This document shows positions 9,086-18,417 of a stretch of 64,000 nt of DNA, one piece after another. The first letter of the stretch is position 1, and every line of letters starts with the position of its first letter. Source of the DNA: an uncultured Alphaproteobacteria bacterium (GTDB lineage Bacteria; Pseudomonadota; Alphaproteobacteria; Rhodobacterales; Rhodobacteraceae); the NCBI GenBank assembly GCA_902562285.1, contig CACESU010000004.1, positions 1 to 64,000 on the forward strand, given 5' to 3'. Under the pieces are notes generated by a model. That model was given only the letters and a program-made list of their open reading frames with translations. It was not told the origin of the DNA and did not search any database. A program made the position numbers and the translations under genes.

Positions 9086-10213
9086 TTATAAGACTCTATC
9101 TATAAACATATCCGCACCAAATAGAGCAATTATAATTGATGCAGGGATTGCTATTAAAATCCGATACCAACTTAATCTATTAAAAAGAGGGATTAATATG
9201 ATTAATGGTGCTAAAGTTATGATTTGTCCAATTTCAATACCAACATTAAAACTTAAGAGATTTAGAAAATAGTCAGTTCCCTCTAATCCTATAAGTTTAA
9301 ACATGCTAGCAAAACCCAAGCCATGAAGTAAACCAAAGCAAAAAATTACTCCAATTCTGCTAATATTCATGCTTTTTCTAAATAAGTTTTCAACGCCAAT
9401 CCAAATAATTGATGCTGCGATTATTGCTTCTACAATTATAGGTGAAATAGTTACGTATCCTAAGCCACCTAATATTAAAGTTATACTATGAGCAATTGTA
9501 AAAGTAGTAACTTGAATCAATAAAGGCTTGAGCTTGTATGAGAAGAAAAACAATCCAAGTACAAATAGTATGTGGTCAAATCCATATGGAATTATATGAA
9601 GTATTCCATTCCATATGCCAGATATTAATAAATTTGGGAAATTAGTTTTTTCTTTTATAATTTCTATTTGATTTGTTTGATTTCCTGGTTTGATCCATTG
9701 TGATTGAGGTTTTTGTGTGTCTGTATCAATATTAGAAAAATTTTTAAAAATTAACGGTCCAAATATTTTTTTTGCACTAAAGGTAATAGGTGTTTCAATA
9801 ATTTGGTTATCAGTTTTAAAATAGATTTTTGTAAAGCGTACTTTTTCAATATCTTTTTCTTCTAATACATCAATTTCTACTACTTTTAAATTTAATGTTT
9901 TTTCAGATGTCTTGATAAAAATAGAATTTGTAATTTGATCCTTTGACTTGAATACCCTTTCTTTTAATATTTCCTCAGATAGTAATCTTAGCTCGTCATA
10001 TATTTTTGAATTTGAAGAATTCTTTGTTTCTTTATGGACACTTGCATCTATGTTTGCCAAAAATGCTTCTGCATTAAATGTTAAAACAATACTAATGTGG
10101 TTCTCAATTTTATTGAATTCTACAACGGCTGGTTTTATTTCATGCGCATATAAATAATTAAAAAAATTCAAAAAAATAAAGGTAATAAAAGTGATAATTT
10201 TTTTATGTATCAT
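9086..10213 (-). CDS. HupE/UreJ family membrane protein
   Basis: A 375-residue membrane protein. After a signal peptide (about residues 1-23, ending LYAHE) comes a soluble domain of about 170 residues. A C-terminal HupE/UreJ-type domain with roughly six membrane helices follows. Its hallmark HIIPYGFDHILFVLGL (about 207-222) carries His and Asp residues typical of this family, and FGLLHGLGFASMF is a second conserved helix. HupE and UreJ are linked to Ni handling for hydrogenase and urease, but neither enzyme is in the window, so a metal-permease role is inferred only. It converges on pfkA with a 28 bp gap. Confidence 0.8.
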   Translation of the reverse strand: MIHKKIITFITFIFLNFFNYLYAHEIKPAVVEFNKIENHISIVLTFNAEAFLANIDASVHKETKNSSNSKIYDELRLLSEEILKERVFKSKDQITNSIFIKTSEKTLNLKVVEIDVLEEKDIEKVRFTKIYFKTDNQIIETPITFSAKKIFGPLIFKNFSNIDTDTQKPQSQWIKPGNQTNQIEIIKEKTNFPNLLISGIWNGILHIIPYGFDHILFVLGLFFFSYKLKPLLIQVTTFTIAHSITLILGGLGYVTISPIIVEAIIAASIIWIGVENLFRKSMNISRIGVIFCFGLLHGLGFASMFKLIGLEGTDYFLNLLSFNVGIEIGQIITLAPLIILIPLFNRLSWYRILIAIPASIIIALFGADMFIDRVL

Positions 10214-10383
10214 TTTAAAAAAAGCAAAAAATAATTCAAACTTACGTTAAGAAATTTGGTAACATTCTTAGTATGTGAAAATTACTATTATCCAATTGGT
10301 AGAATTTTTCAACTTGGATTTATTATTCCTTCAAATATTAATTTCAAACACTAAAATGTAATTAAAAATATTTTAAATCAAAA

Positions 10384-11229
10384 ATGAAAACAGTATCTGT
10401 AGTTATACCTACTTATAATAGAATTAATTTCCTTTTTAGGGCTATCGATTCTATTTTAAAACAGACATACCCTATTCACCAAATCATTGTGGTTGATAAT
10501 AACTCTACAGATAATACTTCTGAAATATTAAGAAATAAATATACTAAAATTGAAATTTTATCTGAGCATAAACAAGGAGTAAGCTCAGCAAGAAACAAAG
10601 GTATAAAGTTTTCTAATAGTGATTGGATAGCATTACTAGATTCTGATGATTCTTGGAAACCAGAAAAAATTGAAAAACAACTCTCTCTTTATGAAAAATC
10701 CAAAAATAAATTAAGAGTAATTCATACTGATGAACTTTGGTATAAAGATAAAGTTTTATTGAATCAGAAAAATAAACACGAAAAGTCAGGTGGTGATATT
10801 TTTGAAAAATGTGTAAGATTATGTTGTATTTCACCAAGTAGTGCATTGATAAGAAGTGATCTTTTTGATGATATTGGATATTTTGATGAATCATTTCCTG
10901 CTTGTGAAGATTATGATTTCTGGTTGCGTGTTACAGCTAGAGAAAAAATTCTATTTCTAGATGAACCACTAACTATAAAATTTGGTGGACATGATGATCA
11001 ACTTTCAAAAAAATATTGGGGTATGGACAGATTTAGAGTTAAAGCTTTAGAGAAATTAATCTTAAATCAGAATTTGAACAATCTGCAAAAAAAAATTGTT
11101 CTTAATTCTCTTATTACCAGATTAGAAATAATAATTAATGGAGCTAAAAAGAGAAATAATCAAAAAATAGAAAAAATCTTTCAGAAAAAAATTAATAAGT
11201 GGAATTTATATAAAATTGAAAATGAATAA
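10384..11229 (+). CDS. family 2 glycosyltransferase
   Basis: A 281-residue GT-A fold glycosyltransferase. VSVVIPTYNR (about 4-13) opens the nucleotide-sugar domain, VVDNNSTDNT follows, and LLDSDDSW gives the D-x-D type metal site. CEDYDFWLRV is the usual acceptor/catalytic segment. The C-terminal 60 residues are Lys/Asn-rich and helical. There are no membrane helices, so it acts in the cytoplasm or at the inner face. Donor and acceptor are unknown. It is the first gene of a tight four-gene run, with a 14 bp gap to the nucleosidase-like gene; that partnership is unusual for a cell-envelope glycosyltransferase. Confidence 0.88.
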   Translation: MKTVSVVIPTYNRINFLFRAIDSILKQTYPIHQIIVVDNNSTDNTSEILRNKYTKIEILSEHKQGVSSARNKGIKFSNSDWIALLDSDDSWKPEKIEKQLSLYEKSKNKLRVIHTDELWYKDKVLLNQKNKHEKSGGDIFEKCVRLCCISPSSALIRSDLFDDIGYFDESFPACEDYDFWLRVTAREKILFLDEPLTIKFGGHDDQLSKKYWGMDRFRVKALEKLILNQNLNNLQKKIVLNSLITRLEIIINGAKKRNNQKIEKIFQKKINKWNLYKIENE

Positions 11230-11243
11230 ACTGAGGCTTTTAA

Positions 11244-12080
11244 ATGAGTAATGGGTGCATATGTTGGGTTATAGCTTTACCATCAGAGGCGAAAACCTTA
11301 ATTGAAGAGTTTAAAATGTTTCCAATCCAAGGAGACACATTATTTCCAGTTTATAAAAACAAAAATGAAGATGAGTGGTTAATAATTACGGGGGTTGGCC
11401 AGTTAAATGCAACTTCAGGAGTTTCATATCTTTATTCTCTATGCCCATATGCAAGAACCTCATTTTGGATAAATTTTGGTATAGCTGGTGCAGGAAAAAA
11501 AGTTGGTAAAATTGGAGATATATTTTTTATAAATGAATTGAGAAATTATGATTATGATAAAGTTCATTATCCATTTATTTTGCCACAACTAAAAATAAAA
11601 AGTGCGATGTTGAGAACATATGATAAACCACAAAATAATTACCAAAATTCTTTTTTATTTGATATGGAAAGCTGGGGTTTTTACAATATTATCCAAAGAA
11701 AAATCACCAGGGAGCTTATTGCTATCATTAAAATCATTTCGGATAATTCAATTAAAACCATATCCTCTATTAGTAAAGATTTTGTAAAAAAATTAGTTAA
11801 AGAAAAAGTTGAATACTTAGTATCTTTAAAAGATATTGGGTATAGTTTATCACGAATAGAAATGGAAAGAAAAAAAGAGCCTTATCTTTTTTCCGATATA
11901 ACAAAAAATATTCATTTTACCTTTTCTCAACGTGAACAATTAAAGAAGTTTTTAATAAGGTGGGATGTTCATTTTCCTAAAAGACCTTTATTTCCTGAAA
12001 TTAAGGATTTAAAAGATGCGAAGTCAGTCTTGGGATATTTGGAGTCTTCTCTTGATAGCCATATATTGAAATGGGAATGA
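11244..12080 (+). CDS. nucleoside phosphorylase/nucleosidase-like protein
   Basis: A 278-residue protein whose first about 150 residues resemble the purine nucleoside phosphorylase/MTA-SAH nucleosidase fold. CWVIALPSEAKTLIEEF (about 7-23) matches the usual A-x-x-x-E-x-x opening, IITGVGQLNATSG is the glycine-rich strand, NFGIAGAG follows, and FDMESWGFY (about 143-151) corresponds to the D-M-E substrate-binding motif. The C-terminal about 125 residues are helical, Lys-rich and not recognisable to me. GAGG at 11233-11236 precedes the ATG. The next gene, SPL-like, starts 3 bp after the stop. A base-releasing or nucleoside-sensing role is inferred. Confidence 0.72.
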   Translation: MSNGCICWVIALPSEAKTLIEEFKMFPIQGDTLFPVYKNKNEDEWLIITGVGQLNATSGVSYLYSLCPYARTSFWINFGIAGAGKKVGKIGDIFFINELRNYDYDKVHYPFILPQLKIKSAMLRTYDKPQNNYQNSFLFDMESWGFYNIIQRKITRELIAIIKIISDNSIKTISSISKDFVKKLVKEKVEYLVSLKDIGYSLSRIEMERKKEPYLFSDITKNIHFTFSQREQLKKFLIRWDVHFPKRPLFPEIKDLKDAKSVLGYLESSLDSHILKWE

Positions 12081-12083
12081 ATT

Positions 12084-13082
12084 TTGATTAACCAAATTTA
12101 CATTGAAAATGAAATTAAAGATCACCCAAGGGTTCAAAGTATATTAAAAAAATTTAAAAGAAAAAAACCAATATATATTGATAAATATGCTTCAGTTTTC
12201 AATAAAAAAAATCAAAATTTTCGTATCCAAAAAAAATATCCGAGTCTAATTTTGTCTCAAAAAAAAGCTGGTTATGTTTTAAAAACACCAGCTGATTTTG
12301 GAATTGGAAATTCTCATAACTTTTATTTCTCACATATGTATAATTGTCTTTATGATTGTGAATACTGTTTTCTTCAAGGAATGTACTCCTCAGCTGACTA
12401 TGTCTTATTTGTTAATTTTGAAGATTTTGAAGAAGAAATAAAAGAAAAAATTAGTTTTCTTAAAAATGAGAAAGTTACTTTTTTTTCCGGTTACGATTGT
12501 GATTCACTAGCATTTGAAAAAATTTCAGGATTTGTAAAATACTTTTTACCTATTTTTAAAAAATTTCCAAATGTCGATATTGAACTAAGAACAAAAAGTA
12601 CTCAAATGGATCCGTTATTTTCTATGGAACCAATTTCAAATTGCGTAGTTGCCTTTAGCTTAATGCCAACTGAAATAGCAAAGAAAGTAGATCATAAAGC
12701 TCCATCAATAGAGAAAAGAATAAATACAATTTCTGAATTGGCCTCAATGGGGTGGAAAATAGGGCTTAGATTTGATCCTTTGATACATGGTGAAAATTGG
12801 AAAATTCTGTATTCTAATTTGTTTGAAAATGTTTTTAAAAACATTGATAGAAAAGTCATACATTCAATTACTCTTGGACCTCTAAGGTTTCCTAAAGATA
12901 TGTTTAAAAAAATAATAAGTATGAATCCACGATCGAAAGTGTTGTCAGATAAATTAGTGCTTAGAGGAAATAAAATTTCATATTCAAATGGTATCGAACA
13001 AGAAATGCAAAGTTTCTGTACTGGATTGTTAAAAGATTATAGTCCAGACACATTATTTTTTAGTTGCAAAGGTAACTTTTAA
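12084..13082 (+). CDS. spore photoproduct lyase-like radical SAM protein
   Basis: A 332-residue radical SAM protein resembling SplB, which reverses spore photoproduct thymine dimers. YNCLYDCEYCFLQG (about 87-99) carries the cluster cysteines Cys88-x3-Cys92-x2-Cys95, the spacing used by SPL. A further Cys139 in SGYDCDSLAFE lies about where SPL keeps its hydrogen-donor Cys. The C-terminal half (residues about 185-285) has GWKIGLRFDPLIHGENW, a typical SPL-family segment. The organism is not expected to sporulate, so the substrate may be another DNA lesion or nucleotide. It uses a TTG start 3 bp after the preceding stop, with weak GGGAA upstream. Confidence 0.82.
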   Translation: MINQIYIENEIKDHPRVQSILKKFKRKKPIYIDKYASVFNKKNQNFRIQKKYPSLILSQKKAGYVLKTPADFGIGNSHNFYFSHMYNCLYDCEYCFLQGMYSSADYVLFVNFEDFEEEIKEKISFLKNEKVTFFSGYDCDSLAFEKISGFVKYFLPIFKKFPNVDIELRTKSTQMDPLFSMEPISNCVVAFSLMPTEIAKKVDHKAPSIEKRINTISELASMGWKIGLRFDPLIHGENWKILYSNLFENVFKNIDRKVIHSITLGPLRFPKDMFKKIISMNPRSKVLSDKLVLRGNKISYSNGIEQEMQSFCTGLLKDYSPDTLFFSCKGNF

Positions 13083-13098
13083 AGTCAAATTATTTAAT

Positions 13099-13806
13099 AT
13101 GGTAAATGTAAAAAAAATTATAGTTACAGGTAGTTCAAGTGGTATTGGAAACTCTATTACAAAAGAACTTATTAAAAAAAAAATAAAAGTAATTGGGATT
13201 TCAAGAAATAATAATAAGAGTTTAATCAAATCTAAATATTTTCAATCAGAAAAAATTGATCTTTCTGAATTAAAAAACATTCCAATAAGCATTGAGAAAA
13301 TTCTTGATGAAAATCAAGATATAGATGGGTTAATATCTTGTGCTGGTGTGGGTTACTTTGGAAATTTAGAGAATTTTTCTGTTGATCAAATTTTAAGTTC
13401 TATTAATATCAACCTTTTATCTCACGTCATTTTAACTAAATATTTAGTTCCTTTTTTTAAAAAGAAGAATAAAGGTAAATTGGTATATATAGGTTCTGAA
13501 TCTGCACTGGATGGTGGAAAGAAAGGAAGTTTATATTCAGCTGCAAAATTTGGTTTAAGAGGTTTTACTCAAAGTATTAGAGCTGAAGTAGCTAGTAGAA
13601 ATATAACTGTTACTCTTATAAATCCAGGCATGGTAAAAACTAATTTTTTTAATAATTTAGATTTTCAGCCAGGTTTAAGTACAAAAAATTCAATTATAGT
13701 ATATGATATTGCGAAAATAGTTATAAGCATTCTTCAAATGGATACCAATACTAGCGTTGATGAAATAGTTATGAATCCTATAATTAAATCTGTAATAAAA
13801 AAATAA
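13099..13806 (+). CDS. short-chain dehydrogenase/reductase
   Basis: A 235-residue classical SDR using NAD(P)H. TGSSSGIG (about 11-18) is the cofactor motif, CAGVG (about 81-85) the N-A-G-like strand, Ser135 in YIGSESALDGG and YSAAKFGLRGF hold the catalytic Ser, Tyr and Lys. NPGMVKTNFF is the usual active-site lid. It ends the four-gene run, 16 bp after the SPL-like gene. The substrate is unknown; its place suggests it reduces or oxidises a small molecule made or released by its neighbours, but it could be independent. Confidence 0.88.
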   Translation: MVNVKKIIVTGSSSGIGNSITKELIKKKIKVIGISRNNNKSLIKSKYFQSEKIDLSELKNIPISIEKILDENQDIDGLISCAGVGYFGNLENFSVDQILSSININLLSHVILTKYLVPFFKKKNKGKLVYIGSESALDGGKKGSLYSAAKFGLRGFTQSIRAEVASRNITVTLINPGMVKTNFFNNLDFQPGLSTKNSIIVYDIAKIVISILQMDTNTSVDEIVMNPIIKSVIKK

Positions 13807-13897
13807 ATTAAATTTTTGTTTATTTTTGCTCAAAACTAGCTTAGATTTTAATACTTATGTGTTTAATTTTTTGAATTAATTATTTGGGGGGATGAAG

Positions 13898-15037
13898 ATG
13901 CTAAAAATTATAAATTTAATTCTATCAATAGGTCTTTTATTAGCTTCATCATTAGTATTTGCTGATGGTCATAAATTGAAAGTTGGTATGATTACTACAT
14001 TATCTGGTGGAGGATCAGGTCTTGGGATAGATGTTAGGGATGGTTTTATGCTTGCTGTAAAAGATAGTAAGGATATAGAGGTAGTTATAGAAGATGACCA
14101 ACGAAAACCTGACATAGCAGTTCAGCTTGCTGACAAAATGATACAATCAGAAAAAGTCGATGTTTTAACTGGTATCATTTGGTCTAATTTAGCAATGGCA
14201 GTAGTTCCTGCAGCTGTTAGTCAAGGAAAATTCTATCTTTCTCCCAATGCTGGGCCATCTGCATTAGCTGGTAAGGGATGTCATGAAAACTATTTTAACG
14301 TTGCTTGGCAAAATGATAATCTTCATGAAGCAGCAGGTGGACACGCAAATTCAGCAGGATTCAAAAATACATTCATTTTAGCACCAAACTATCCAGCAGG
14401 TAAGGACGCATTGACTGGTTTTAAAAGATATTTCAAAGGAAGCCTTGCAGGTGAAATCTATACAAAACTTGGTCAAACTGATTATGCTGTTGAAATTGCT
14501 CAAATAAGAGCTTCAAAAGCGGATAGTGTTTTCTTTTTTCTTCCTGGTGGTATGGGCATAGGTTTTATGAAACAATATGCACAGTCTGGTATAGAAATAC
14601 CAGTAGTAGGGCCTGCTTTTTCTTTTGATCAGGGTATTTTGAAGGCAGTTGGTGAAGCTGCATTAGGAGTTAAGAATACATCTCAGTGGTCCAAGGATTT
14701 GGATAATAAAGCAAACAAAAAATTTGTTTCTGATTTTCAAAATGAATATGGAAGACTTCCATCTTTATATGCTTCGCAAGGTTACGATACTGGTAAGCTT
14801 TTAATGTCTGCAATGGAAAAAGCTAGTGTAAAAGATATGGGATCTTTTAGAGAAGCACTAAGATCAGCTGATTTTGATTCAACAAGAGGTCAATTTAGTT
14901 TTTCAAGTAATCATCATCCTATTCAAGATATTTATGTAAGAGAAGTGATAAAAGAAGGAGATATTTTAACAAACAAAATTGTATCTGTTGGTTTGAAAGA
15001 TCACTCAAATGCCTATGTTAGTCAGTGTTCAATGTAA
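13898..15037 (+). CDS. branched-chain amino acid type ABC transporter substrate-binding protein (LivK-like)
   Basis: A periplasmic binding protein of the Leu/Ile/Val (Peripla_BP_6) family that delivers ligand to the permeases encoded next. A signal peptide ends at VFA-DGH (about residue 22), followed by LKVGMITTLSGGGSGLG. The ATG at 13898 is preferred over the one at 13892 because GGGGGG at 13886-13891 would touch the latter. Family members bind amino acids, urea, amides or aromatic acids, so the ligand cannot be named. It is first of the liv operon; TTGCTC and TTTAAT about 50 bp upstream could be its promoter. Two Cys (HENYF and QCSM regions) may form a disulfide. Confidence 0.9.
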   Translation: MLKIINLILSIGLLLASSLVFADGHKLKVGMITTLSGGGSGLGIDVRDGFMLAVKDSKDIEVVIEDDQRKPDIAVQLADKMIQSEKVDVLTGIIWSNLAMAVVPAAVSQGKFYLSPNAGPSALAGKGCHENYFNVAWQNDNLHEAAGGHANSAGFKNTFILAPNYPAGKDALTGFKRYFKGSLAGEIYTKLGQTDYAVEIAQIRASKADSVFFFLPGGMGIGFMKQYAQSGIEIPVVGPAFSFDQGILKAVGEAALGVKNTSQWSKDLDNKANKKFVSDFQNEYGRLPSLYASQGYDTGKLLMSAMEKASVKDMGSFREALRSADFDSTRGQFSFSSNHHPIQDIYVREVIKEGDILTNKIVSVGLKDHSNAYVSQCSM

Positions 15038-15085
15038 TCTAGTAATTTATTAACAAGATATTAATTTTTTTGAATCTTAATAAAG

Positions 15086-16009
15086 ATGACAGCTGAGTTA
15101 TTAATTGAACAGTTGCTTAATGGTTTACAGTTTGGTTTTATGCTGTTTTTAATGTCAGCAGGTTTAACATTGATCTTTGGAGTTATGGGTCTTATAAATT
15201 TGGCCCATGGCTCTTTTTATATGATTGGTGCTTTTTCAGCAGCAGCAACCTTTGCTTTTTTTAATTCTTTTTGGCTAAGTTTATTCGCCTCTTTTTCTTC
15301 TGCAGCTGTTGTTGGTGTAATAGTTGAAAAAACTATAATAAGAAAACTTTATAACAGAGATCATCTGGACCAAGTTTTAGTGACATTTGCACTCATTTTA
15401 TTTTTTTCTGAATTAATAAGATGGATTTTTGGAGCCTTCCCCCTATATCTTGACGTACCCAAAATTTTAAATGGCTCGATTGAAATATTTGATGGTATTT
15501 ATTATTCAAAATATCGTCTTTTTATTATTTTTGTTGGGTTGATAATAGCTACTTTTTTATTTTTCCTTATAGGAAAAACTAATTTAGGTATTCAAATTAG
15601 AGCTGGGCAATATGACCGTGAAATGATTTCTGCTTTAGGAGTGAATATTTCAAAGCTTTATACATTACTTTTTGGTATTGGGGCAGCCTTGGCTGGTCTA
15701 GCAGGTGCATTGATAGGTACAATCCAATCCGTCGAAGTTGGTATGGGAGAACCTATTCTTATACTTGCTTTCGTTATAATAGTCATAGGTGGAATAGGAT
15801 CAATAAAAGGTGCTCTTATCGCTTCATTATTAGTTGGTTTAGTGGATACACTAGGAAGATTTTTAATTCCTTGGGTGCTTCAGACTATTACCAATCCTTC
15901 AGATGCTATGTCTATAGGATCTGCAATTGGTTCAATGCTTATTTATATTTTAATGGCCATTATACTAATTTTAAGGCCTACAGGATTATATGGAAAAATA
16001 CTTTCATGA
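15086..16009 (+). CDS. branched-chain amino acid type ABC permease (LivH-like)
   Basis: A 307-residue inner-membrane permease with about eight hydrophobic helices. LTLIFGVMGLINLAHGSFYM (about 27-46) is the LivH hallmark, and IGGIGSIKGALIASLLVG (near 234-251) is the cytoplasmic coupling loop that touches the ATPase. It pairs with the LivM-like protein to form the channel. The gene overlaps livM by four bases (ATGA), so they are translationally coupled. Confidence 0.92.
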   Translation: MTAELLIEQLLNGLQFGFMLFLMSAGLTLIFGVMGLINLAHGSFYMIGAFSAAATFAFFNSFWLSLFASFSSAAVVGVIVEKTIIRKLYNRDHLDQVLVTFALILFFSELIRWIFGAFPLYLDVPKILNGSIEIFDGIYYSKYRLFIIFVGLIIATFLFFLIGKTNLGIQIRAGQYDREMISALGVNISKLYTLLFGIGAALAGLAGALIGTIQSVEVGMGEPILILAFVIIVIGGIGSIKGALIASLLVGLVDTLGRFLIPWVLQTITNPSDAMSIGSAIGSMLIYILMAIILILRPTGLYGKILS

Positions 16010-16986
16010 TCTCAGAAAAAAATATAAGTTATATTTCTTTAATTAGTCTTCTTTTAATAGCTATATTCGCGGAATATTTCAATGAACCCTATTTAATTAC
16101 ATTACTTTCAAGGATAATAATTTTTTCAATTGCTGCAATTGGATTAAATCTTGTACTAGGATTTGGGAATTTAATATCTTTTGGACATGCAGCATTTTTT
16201 GGTCTCGGAGGTTACATATCAGGTATTTTAGCTATTCATGCTTTTAATTCTGAATTATTAATTTCCTGGCCTTTCCTATTTAGTGGGAGTAATAATTCAT
16301 TAATTATATGGTTATTTACAATCCTCTTTTGTTCACTGCTAGCTTTACTGCTTGGAGCTTTATGTCTAAGAACTTCAGGCGTATATTTTATTATGATTAC
16401 TTTAGCATTTGCACAAATGCTATATTATTTTGCAATTAGTTGGCCATCATATGGTGGTGAGGATGGATTTTCTATTTATGTTCGTTCAACACTATTTGGT
16501 ATAAATACTATGCAGGGATTAAATTTCTTTTTAATTTGTTTTTTTTGGTTATTAATTATCTTATTTACTATAAACAAGGTTGTAAAATCTCCGTTTGGTT
16601 TGGCTCTAAGAGCTACTAGGTTTAATTTAACAAGAGTCAAATCTGTAGGTATAAACCCTTTTAAAATTCAATTGATAGCTTTTGTTTTATCTGGAGCTAT
16701 AACTGGTATCGCTGGATCTCTATATGTAGATTTAAATCGTTTTGTTAGTCCTTCTTTATTAAGTTGGCAAATGTCTGGAGAGTTTATTGTATTCATATTA
16801 ATTGGTGGTTTAGGACGCATTTATGGACCCTTAATTGGAGCTGCTTTTTTTGTTACTTTTGAACAATTTTTCGGTTCTTACACAGAGCATTGGCAGATAT
16901 TTCTAGGTATTATAATTATATCAACAGTCTTATTTGCTAAAGGTGGAATTATAGGGTTTATTTTGGAATATCGAAAAAATGAATAA
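16006..16986 (+). CDS. branched-chain amino acid type ABC permease (LivM-like)
   Basis: A 326-residue permease partner of the LivH-like protein. Start at 16006 is chosen because it gives the ATGA overlap and begins MISEKNISYI; the frame is open further left but inside livH. GLNLVLGFGNLISFGHAAFF is the LivM signature, and IGGLGRIYGPLIGAAFF near the C-terminus is the coupling region. About nine membrane helices are visible. It overlaps the following ATPase gene by eight bases. Confidence 0.92.
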   Translation: MISEKNISYISLISLLLIAIFAEYFNEPYLITLLSRIIIFSIAAIGLNLVLGFGNLISFGHAAFFGLGGYISGILAIHAFNSELLISWPFLFSGSNNSLIIWLFTILFCSLLALLLGALCLRTSGVYFIMITLAFAQMLYYFAISWPSYGGEDGFSIYVRSTLFGINTMQGLNFFLICFFWLLIILFTINKVVKSPFGLALRATRFNLTRVKSVGINPFKIQLIAFVLSGAITGIAGSLYVDLNRFVSPSLLSWQMSGEFIVFILIGGLGRIYGPLIGAAFFVTFEQFFGSYTEHWQIFLGIIIISTVLFAKGGIIGFILEYRKNE

Positions 16987-17722
16987 AATTTTACAAATAA
17001 TAGATTTAAAAAAGAATTTTGGAGCAATTACGGCTAGTAACAATATTAACTTTTGTCTTGAAACCGGTGAAATTCATGCTCTTATTGGACCAAATGGTGC
17101 TGGAAAATCTACTCTTATAAAGCAAATTATGGGAGAAATGAAGCAAGACTCCGGAGAAATAATATTAAGTGGAATTAATATTTCAAACTTAACAACTGAA
17201 GATAGAATACATTTAGGATTTGCTAGATCATTTCAAATTACTGATGTAATTTCAGATTTCACTATTTTTCAAAACGTATTACTAGCTAAAATTGGAAAAG
17301 AAAAGAAATTTTATAATTTTTACTCAAGTATAGATTCTGGTGAACTTACATATGAAGAAATAAAGACTATTCTGCTAAAGATAGATCTTTGGGATGAGAG
17401 AGAAAAACCTGCCTCTTTACTAAGCCATGGAGAAAGAAGACAACTTGAAATAGGAATCGCTTTGGCTTTAAACCCTAAATTAATTTTGCTAGATGAACCA
17501 ATGGCAGGATTAAGTCTTGATAAGATTGAAAAGATGAAGTTAATTTTTAATCAAATTAAAGATGATGTTCCAATTTTACTAATAGAACATAATATGGACG
17601 TTGTTTTTTCTATAGCTGATCGAATTTCAGTATTAGTAAATGGGAAAATTATAGCTTCAGGCACTTCGTCAGAAATTAAATCAAATTCGGATGTAAAAGA
17701 AGCTTACCTAGGCACAGCTTAA
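16979..17722 (+). CDS. branched-chain amino acid type ABC transporter ATP-binding protein (LivG-like)
   Basis: A 247-residue ABC ATPase that powers the importer. Walker A GPNGAGKST (about 37-45), a signature loop LSHGERRQLEIG in which the usual LSGGE reads LSHGE, as is common in LivG, and Walker B LILLDEPMAG are all present, with switch His in LLIEHNMDVV. It overlaps livM by eight bases and the LivF gene by one base. Confidence 0.92.
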   Translation: MNKILQIIDLKKNFGAITASNNINFCLETGEIHALIGPNGAGKSTLIKQIMGEMKQDSGEIILSGINISNLTTEDRIHLGFARSFQITDVISDFTIFQNVLLAKIGKEKKFYNFYSSIDSGELTYEEIKTILLKIDLWDEREKPASLLSHGERRQLEIGIALALNPKLILLDEPMAGLSLDKIEKMKLIFNQIKDDVPILLIEHNMDVVFSIADRISVLVNGKIIASGTSSEIKSNSDVKEAYLGTA

Positions 17723-18417
17723 TGAACAAATCACTTATATTAAAATTAGATAATATTTACTCTTCTTATAGTAATGTACAAGTTTTAAATGGTGTAAATT
17801 TACTAATAAGGAAGGGAGAAATTGTATCTTTATTGGGAAGAAATGGAATGGGTAAGACAACAACCATAAAATCTATTTGTGGAATTTTAAAGCCTCATTC
17901 TGGAAAGATTGAATTTAATAGTGTCAAAATTAATGGTATGGAGTCCTACAAAATTGCTAGATTGGGTATTGGATTAGTACCAGAGGGTAGAAGAATTTTT
18001 GCAAATTTAACTGTTAAAGAAAATTTAATTGGTTCCTCAGTTAAGGGTTATTGGGATTTAGATAAAATACTAACTTTATTTCCAATTTTTGAAGAAAGAC
18101 TTTCTCAACTTTCTTCTAATCTATCTGGTGGTGAGCAACAAATGTTAGCCATAGGAAGAGCTCTTATGACTAATCCTTCACTACTTATATTAGATGAGGC
18201 TACAGAAGGCTTGTCACCAGTCATCTCAAAAAAGATTTGGAATGTTTTAAGAGAGGTTAGTAATAAAGGAATTTCAATTCTTATAATAGATAAAATTAGT
18301 CAAGATCTAAAAGAATTTTCTAATTATAGCTACATCTTGGAAAGAGGAAAAAGTGTATGGAACGGAAAATTAGCAGAATTATCTAGCGATAATAGTAAGC
18401 GCTTTTTAGGAGTTTAG
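17722..18417 (+). CDS. branched-chain amino acid type ABC transporter ATP-binding protein (LivF-like)
   Basis: A 231-residue second ATPase of the importer. Walker A GRNGMGKTT (about 38-46), signature LSGGEQQMLAIG and Walker B LLILDEATEGLSP are visible. The H-loop residue after Walker B is unusual: LIIDKISQDL has Asp-Lys where most LivF proteins have a His (for example VEQN or VEHD), which could affect hydrolysis. The gene starts on the last base of livG and ends the transporter operon proper; an alpha/beta hydrolase gene follows after 92 bp. Confidence 0.9.
   Translation: MNKSLILKLDNIYSSYSNVQVLNGVNLLIRKGEIVSLLGRNGMGKTTTIKSICGILKPHSGKIEFNSVKINGMESYKIARLGIGLVPEGRRIFANLTVKENLIGSSVKGYWDLDKILTLFPIFEERLSQLSSNLSGGEQQMLAIGRALMTNPSLLILDEATEGLSPVISKKIWNVLREVSNKGISILIIDKISQDLKEFSNYSYILERGKSVWNGKLAELSSDNSKRFLGV

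Follow-up and report, generated by a model that had tools for sequence, protein, structure and literature searches.

What would four closely packed genes for a glycosyltransferase, a nucleosidase-like protein, a relative of a spore DNA-repair enzyme and a dehydrogenase be doing together in a marine bacterium? They lie at positions 10384-13806 of a 64,000-nucleotide stretch (the window) from an uncultured Rhodobacteraceae bacterium (NCBI GenBank assembly GCA_902562285.1, contig CACESU010000004.1). All are on the plus strand, in the order family 2 glycosyltransferase (GT2), nucleosidase-like protein (NUC), radical S-adenosylmethionine (SAM) protein resembling spore photoproduct lyase (SPL), and short-chain dehydrogenase/reductase (SDR), with gaps of 14, 3 and 16 bp. 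A first-pass annotation had described this layout, which open reading frame calling and family scans confirmed, and had proposed that the cluster acts on a photodamaged or modified nucleoside. Here we find that the genes are conserved and inherited together, that NUC goes specifically with the SPL-like protein, and that the four almost certainly form one functional unit. As for what the unit does, we tentatively prefer a small biosynthetic pathway in which adenosylation by the SPL-like enzyme would be followed by depurination by NUC and processing by SDR and GT2.

The cluster genes are under purifying selection (dN/dS, the ratio of nonsynonymous to synonymous substitution rates, 0.09-0.32 against four close relatives), and the SPL-like gene is single-copy in the source genome, a 1.73-Mb assembly that is 68% complete. 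When GTDB was scanned with the SPL-like protein, 27 loci were found, carrying the labels of six phyla (Alpha-/Gammaproteobacteria, Opitutales/Opitutia of the Verrucomicrobiota, Acidobacteria, Chlamydiae, Omnitrophica and Sumerlaeota), several of them short contigs of metagenome-assembled genomes (MAGs) whose taxon labels could be wrong. Among relatives with names, the nearest are assemblies of uncultured marine alphaproteobacteria, a Paracoccaceae MAG and a Rhodobacteraceae MAG, with "marine" taken from names and other members. NUC lies immediately upstream of the SPL-like gene in all 27 loci, GT2 is nearby in 25 (in L012 downstream, on the other strand), and SDR follows downstream in 18; no fifth partner gene recurs across lineages in these loci. 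Close gammaproteobacterial SPL-like loci number 50, of which 45 were examined as long stretches. NUC is adjacent in 39 of the 45 (including the degenerate NUC of L109), SDR is within 200 bp in 30 and GT2 within 2.5 kb in 29; among the other five, three short loci have NUC, one is the Granulosicoccaceae locus L028, and L052 is an SPL-SDR pair lacking NUC. Fusobacterium vincentii SB055 encodes NUC and the SPL-like protein as a single 623-aa frame, followed by SDR. Across the six loci of the Fusobacterium/gut clade NUC is adjacent or fused in four and no GT2 is nearby; SDR lies within 200 bp downstream in two, at about 220 bp in Fusobacterium, and upstream in the gut contig L039, where all that is left of NUC is a 160-aa remnant lacking the N-terminal half.

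The same association was seen at the level of whole genomes. Among 369 gammaproteobacterial genomes, 49 carry a close SPL-like gene (E <= 1e-126), ten carry a far one, with E values from about 1e-47 to 1e-42 and open frames spanning 419-477 aa, and three carry an intermediate one; 58 match the NUC profile at a threshold of E <= 1e-12. NUC is present in 46/49 close and 10/10 far genomes, in 0/3 of the intermediate ones, and in only 2 of the other 307; the remaining 305 of these have neither an SPL-like nor a NUC match. This amounts to 56/59 close and far genomes against 2/310 others (nominal Fisher p 5e-60, which is not a true probability because the genomes are related). NUC is thus all but confined to carriers of the SPL-like gene, which indicates that it does not serve as a general nucleosidase for 5'-deoxyadenosine.

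Close genomes without a NUC match are G643 and G887, each with a degenerate NUC between GT2 and the SPL-like gene, and G651, in which the genes flanking the SPL-SDR pair match those of G841, a genome whose NUC sits elsewhere. The two genomes with NUC but no SPL-like match are G862, with a piece of an SPL-like gene at the end of a contig, and G958, in which GT2 stands beside NUC. Of eight genomes searched because no intact NUC adjoins their SPL-like gene, six proved to carry NUC elsewhere, either at another place (G841, G771, G949, G668) or, on the contig of the SPL-like gene, some 3 kb upstream of it (G445, G1006); G643 and G887 had none. GT2 accompanies the separated NUC in G771, G949 and G445, but was not within the stretch examined for G841 and G668, and the separated matches in G771 and G445 contain one in-frame stop each. 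These split cases indicate that GT2-NUC and SPL-SDR can come apart without the set being lost. Scattering of the homologues had been named at first pass as an outcome that would refute a linked system; instead they stay together in six labelled phyla and co-occur when separated. In one genome, G910, both the SPL-like gene and NUC are present twice (contigs C218 and C172).

The SPL-like protein is related to SPL while being distinct from it. It scores 88.9 bits against the curated SplB model, for which the cut-off is 400. The predicted structure (predicted local distance difference test score, pLDDT, 82; residues 97-103 under 50) has SPL as its closest solved fold (Z 28.1 over 314 residues, root-mean-square deviation (rmsd) 3.2), the next matches being PFL-activating enzyme and others at Z 14.3 and less, MqnE among them. 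The CxxxCxxC motif (C88, C92, C95) is invariant in a 25-row alignment and in 84/84 close-clade sequences, and the SPL cysteine spacing noted at first pass therefore stands; two further catalytic residues of SPL are missing from their expected positions. SplB uses Cys141 and Tyr99, with Tyr97 assisting (PMC5368176). Throughout the 84 close-clade sequences the Cys141 column holds Tyr (83) or His (1) and the Tyr99 column Phe (84), the latter being Tyr in 6/6 sequences of the Fusobacterium/gut clade; the Tyr97 position is kept as Y94 in 84/84. A cysteine at 139, two residues past the Cys141 column, is found in 78/84 close-clade sequences, and 5/6 sequences of the Fusobacterium/gut clade have one at 134 instead. 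A nearby thiol is thus mostly kept, at other places, in these two clades.

An 80-row tree separates the close (support 99/98), Fusobacterium/gut (100/97) and far (100/100) clades from one another and from the seven-row SplB/SPL-family group (99/96), with the mid group unsupported as one clade (69/20). The protein accordingly shares its fold, CxxxCxxC motif and Tyr97 position with SplB (TIGR04070) and the SPL family (TIGR03886), from which it differs in its clade, in the residues at the Cys141 and Tyr99 positions and in its gene company. Two further SPL-like matches, L034 and L035, contain one in-frame TAA each, yet the open frame is full length, and both have Ser at 139. A separate group of SPL-related proteins of 377-403 aa (L118-L120, in G667, G795 and G898) comes from genomes without a NUC match.

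Single-sequence family matches of NUC are weak (futalosine hydrolase 4.6e-5; MTA/SAH nucleosidase, MTAN, 8.6e-5) and lie below the curated equivalog cut-offs, at 23 bits versus 125 for futalosine hydrolase, the best curated family, and 22 versus 169 for MTAN. A profile built from 25 NUC homologues retrieves MTANs at 4e-9; its second segment, weak alone (i-Evalue 5.2), pairs the DMEA and SDN of NUC with the EMEA and SD of MTAN, in agreement with the fold match. In the predicted structure (pLDDT 92.6), residues 1-208 match MTAN, CT263 and futalosine hydrolase at Z 20-23, the best being MTAN 2h8g (Z 22.8, 200 residues, rmsd 2.9); the alignment rows cover NUC up to about residue 205. This corrects the "unknown C-terminal half" of the first-pass annotation: most of that half continues the MTAN fold, and only about the last 70 residues form an extra, unassigned helical domain.

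The MTAN-like M-E and S-D motifs fall at 141-142 and 166-167. E15, N77, G79, E142, K163 and D167 are identical in all 97 NUC homologues that pass the profile threshold, a set that degenerate NUCs do not enter. Three of these residues, E15, E142 and D167, are the equivalents of the catalytic Glu12, Glu174 and Asp197 of MTAN (E. coli numbering). With fold and catalytic residues retained, NUC very probably works as a nucleosidase. The nearest families, MTAN and futalosine hydrolase, have 5'-substituted adenosines as substrates, and a compound of this kind is most likely the substrate of NUC. What sets NUC apart from MTAN, besides its low score, is the helical domain and the tie to one radical SAM enzyme. 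Degenerate NUCs of 217-220 aa lie between GT2 and the SPL-like gene in L109 and L111; by eye they have lost the nucleosidase motifs, although a hidden Markov model (HMM) still picks out the C-terminal helical domain in L109. The source genome has one match to the PNP superfamily, which by eye resembles purine nucleoside phosphorylase.

The helical domain may have changed partners during evolution. In the ten far gammaproteobacterial genomes NUC is short, without the C-terminal domain, and has GT2 beside it in eight and SDR in seven; the SPL-like gene is elsewhere in the genome, except in G825, where it is a convergent neighbour of the NUC group. The far SPL proteins carry about 60-120 extra N-terminal residues, counted stop to stop. 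A profile-profile comparison of the NUC C-terminal domain with this N-terminus scored 27.2, against a decoy maximum of 17.1 (0/200 column-shuffled profiles reached the score) and 14.3 for the reversed profile; the reported probability of the match is 46-58%. A plain HMM search did not detect the domain in the far SPL proteins, nor did an HMM search at E 1e-3 detect it in the linker of the Fusobacterium NUC-SPL fusion. These comparisons are suggestive of a move of the helical domain from the C-terminus of NUC to the N-terminus of the SPL-like protein in the far lineage. If so, NUC, the helical domain and the SPL-like protein would be one machine with a shifted split point.

The pairing of a radical SAM enzyme with a nucleosidase of MTAN fold suggests addition of an adenosyl radical, then loss of adenine. 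In such a pathway the SPL-like enzyme would cleave SAM and add the 5'-deoxyadenosyl radical to an acceptor, and the adduct radical might be quenched by the cysteine of the GYDCD loop, or by C134 in the Fusobacterium/gut clade; in HpnH, Cys106 reduces the radical intermediate (PMC12583986). NUC, docked by its helical domain, would then hydrolyse the N-glycosidic bond, with adenine leaving and a 5-deoxyribosyl adduct staying behind. SDR would reduce (or oxidise) the freed pentose end, and GT2 would glycosylate a hydroxyl of the product, probably as the last step. A ribosyl adduct would account for all four enzymes, because SDR and glycosyltransferase fit the needs of a freed pentose adduct, as in hopanoid tetrols. 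Searches of solved structures with GT2 and SDR indicated no specific function for either.

There is precedent for such a sequence of reactions. In hopanoid synthesis HpnH adds the radical, the putative phosphorylase HpnG removes adenine, reduction follows and HpnI glycosylates (PMC12583986), and our cluster likewise ties a radical SAM enzyme to a nucleosidase. Unlike HpnH, the radical SAM enzyme of the cluster belongs to the SPL family. Hopanoid side-chain synthesis itself was rejected as the general role, squalene-hopene cyclase being over its cut-off in 9/47 carriers and not in the source genome, which is incomplete. The futalosine route to menaquinone likewise combines radical SAM adenosylation (MqnE) with an MTAN-fold hydrolase (MqnB); futalosine hydrolase and MqnE both appeared among the matches of NUC and the SPL-like model, respectively. 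This route was also rejected, MqnE being over its cut-off in 2/47 carriers; NUC is far below the cut-off of futalosine hydrolase. ArsS belongs to a radical SAM family other than that of the SPL-like protein. Its likeness to our scheme is an adenosylation step on the way to a sugar product: ArsS is reported to adenosylate arsenic en route to arsenosugars (PMC12159101). The first-pass annotation had found no pathway to match this linked unit and had ranked it as a candidate undescribed system; we could not name one either, and the idea is supported. Among the matches listed in a search of the open-access literature no title or abstract describes this gene set. Its suggestion of a nucleoside-derived product also fits.

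Several observations weigh against the proposed pathway. The fold matches of the predicted NUC structure fail to tell MTAN from futalosine hydrolase. Beside the SPL-like gene, SDR is absent in 9/27 GTDB loci (two being contig ends) and in 15/45 gammaproteobacterial loci, and GT2 in 16/45 of the latter. Only a degenerate or N-terminally truncated NUC accompanies the SPL-like gene in G643, G887 and the gut contig L039, which implies that depurination there is dispensable or done by another enzyme. The candidate quenching residue C139 is missing from 6/84 close-clade sequences (two of which have a cysteine at 132), and the mid (four) and far (ten) groups have no cysteine in the equivalent of the GYDCD loop. 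The spread is patchy, with matches in 8/385 sampled alphaproteobacterial genomes (our own included, one match weak) and in 5/240 genomes from the phylum of the Opitutales genome. Finally, no MTAN over the cut-off was found in 56/56 gammaproteobacterial carriers, which leaves the clearing of 5'-deoxyadenosine as a possible job for NUC.

This last point bears on an explanation that we regard as unlikely, though a serious contender, in which the SPL-like enzyme carries out ordinary hydrogen abstraction on its substrate, the product passes to SDR and GT2, and NUC is there solely to break down 5'-deoxyadenosine, an inhibitory by-product. Radical SAM enzymes are inhibited by 5'-deoxyadenosine, which needs to be removed (PMC8102628), and in microcin C maturation the nucleosidase Mtn enhances MccD, presumably by hydrolysing the by-product methylthioadenosine (PMC10491745). 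The NUC-SPL fusion and the gene neighbourhood fit this explanation equally well, and an MTAN over the cut-off is lacking also from 17/18 other genomes or records. Fusobacterium is the only carrier searched that has a true MTAN, and yet it fuses NUC to the SPL-like protein, which speaks against simple clearing. The argument that NUC would be redundant with MTAN is weakened by the restriction of MTAN to this one carrier, and the counts cover carriers only. Moreover, NUC follows only this radical SAM gene, although other radical SAM enzymes are, to our knowledge, near-universal; this counters a general clearing role, not a by-product role for this particular enzyme.

An improbable alternative is that what the SPL-like enzyme modifies is a nucleoside, a nucleotide or a base of a nucleic acid, from which NUC frees the base or modified sugar for a nucleoside-derived product or for salvage. 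An SPL fold next to a nucleosidase of MTAN type whose catalytic residues are preserved would suit such chemistry, and the substrate of SPL proper is a thymine dinucleotide (PMC5368176). The families nearest to NUC, however, act on 5'-substituted adenosines and not on pyrimidine nucleosides. The absence of a further recurrent gene and of any nucleoside-handling family among the neighbours scanned also counts against it. We consider it very improbable indeed that the SPL-like protein repairs a DNA photoproduct with the other genes as accessories. The SPL fold and radical SAM motif are compatible with repair, LexA-regulated splB homologues are predicted in alpha- and betaproteobacteria (PMC3323433), and SplB-like genes occur in SOS gene neighbourhoods (PMC3765255). 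The residue argument also calls for caution, given that the cysteine of clostridial SPL lies at another place (PMC5368176). Against this stand the separate clade, the Tyr and Phe at the Cys141 and Tyr99 positions, the score far below the SplB cut-off and the tie to NUC, GT2 and SDR, and on residues, clade and gene company repair was rejected as the main explanation. No DNA-repair or nucleoside-handling family was found among 26 neighbour genes scanned with Pfam, some of which match no family; in contrast, the SPL-family gene of Deinococcus adjoins dinB and a uracil-DNA glycosylase gene. The photodamaged nucleoside of the first-pass annotation is disfavoured on the same evidence.

If the adenosylation-depurination pathway is correct, the SPL-like proteins would be a new family of adenosylation enzymes in the radical SAM field, and the cluster would point to an undescribed class of metabolites or lipids. 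It also follows that SPL-like proteins of bacteria that do not form spores need not be DNA-repair enzymes. With slightly more reserve, we suggest a widespread further "adenosylate then depurinate" pathway that would use an SPL-like enzyme, a non-hopanoid acceptor and a movable docking domain to make glycosylated products extended by a 5-deoxypentose, in marine plankton, many gammaproteobacteria and Fusobacterium. The SPL-like gene occurs in 49/369 sampled gammaproteobacterial species (about 13%), and SAR116 is among the marine alphaproteobacterial carriers (L008-L010). Within the order of the source genome, 196 sampled genomes, itself included, gave a match at E 1e-10 in that genome only. Named carrier strains are Fusobacterium vincentii SB055 and Granulosicoccaceae strain I2M11.

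A mobile or phage origin of the cluster was considered and rejected; a scan of the viral contig collection gave no relative. The plasmid collection gave 14 matches, one of them the 2.1-Mb Fusobacterium record; the other 13 are 20-26% identical, ten annotated as SPL family or splB and three unannotated. The Fusobacterium record (L037, NZ_CP084075.1) is named Fusobacterium vincentii "plasmid pSB055A", and at its size looks like a chromosome. The phage collection gave two matches, both unannotated faecal contigs labelled 'Bacteriophage sp.'. In the unverified human-faecal records of that label, L038 and L039 (MT835770.1 and MT835514.1), SPL-like, SDR and NUC genes (in L039 the remnant) stand amid bacterial-looking genes, and the viral label is doubtful.

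Coordinates of the cluster and its surroundings are collected in Table 1. A sigma-70 consensus scan of the window gave 200 matches versus 221 expected from shuffles, and so no excess.

Table 1. Genes, protein features and presumed regulatory region of the cluster (positions in the window).
Feature	Position	Strand	Details
Intergenic region between HupE/UreJ-like gene and GT2; presumed cluster promoter region	10214..10383		position only
GT2 glycosyltransferase gene	10384..11229	+	281 aa; Glycos_transf_2 PF00535 5e-33
NUC gene	11244..12080	+	278 aa; MTAN/futalosine-hydrolase-like nucleosidase with C-terminal helical domain
Helical C-terminal domain of NUC	11874..12077	+	about residues 211-278; from model and profile-profile comparison
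SPL-like radical SAM gene	12084..13082	+	332 aa, TTG start; SPL PF20903 1.2e-18
Radical SAM motif of SPL-like protein	12345..12368	+	C88-x3-C92-x2-C95; from alignment
GYDCD loop of SPL-like protein	12489..12503	+	residues 136-140; Y137 at SplB Cys141 position, C139 two residues on
SDR gene	13099..13806	+	235 aa; adh_short PF00106 3e-40

Upstream of GT2, L161 and L019 have a DUF1820 gene, to which BLAST finds a relative in L163. Divergent from the cluster, a gene for a HupE/UreJ-like membrane protein (9086-10213) keeps its position in 6/6 nearest relatives (L002-L007) and not beyond. After the cluster, at 13892-18417, come genes for a substrate-binding protein and an ABC transporter, by look of the branched-chain amino-acid type, which are syntenic in L002-L006.

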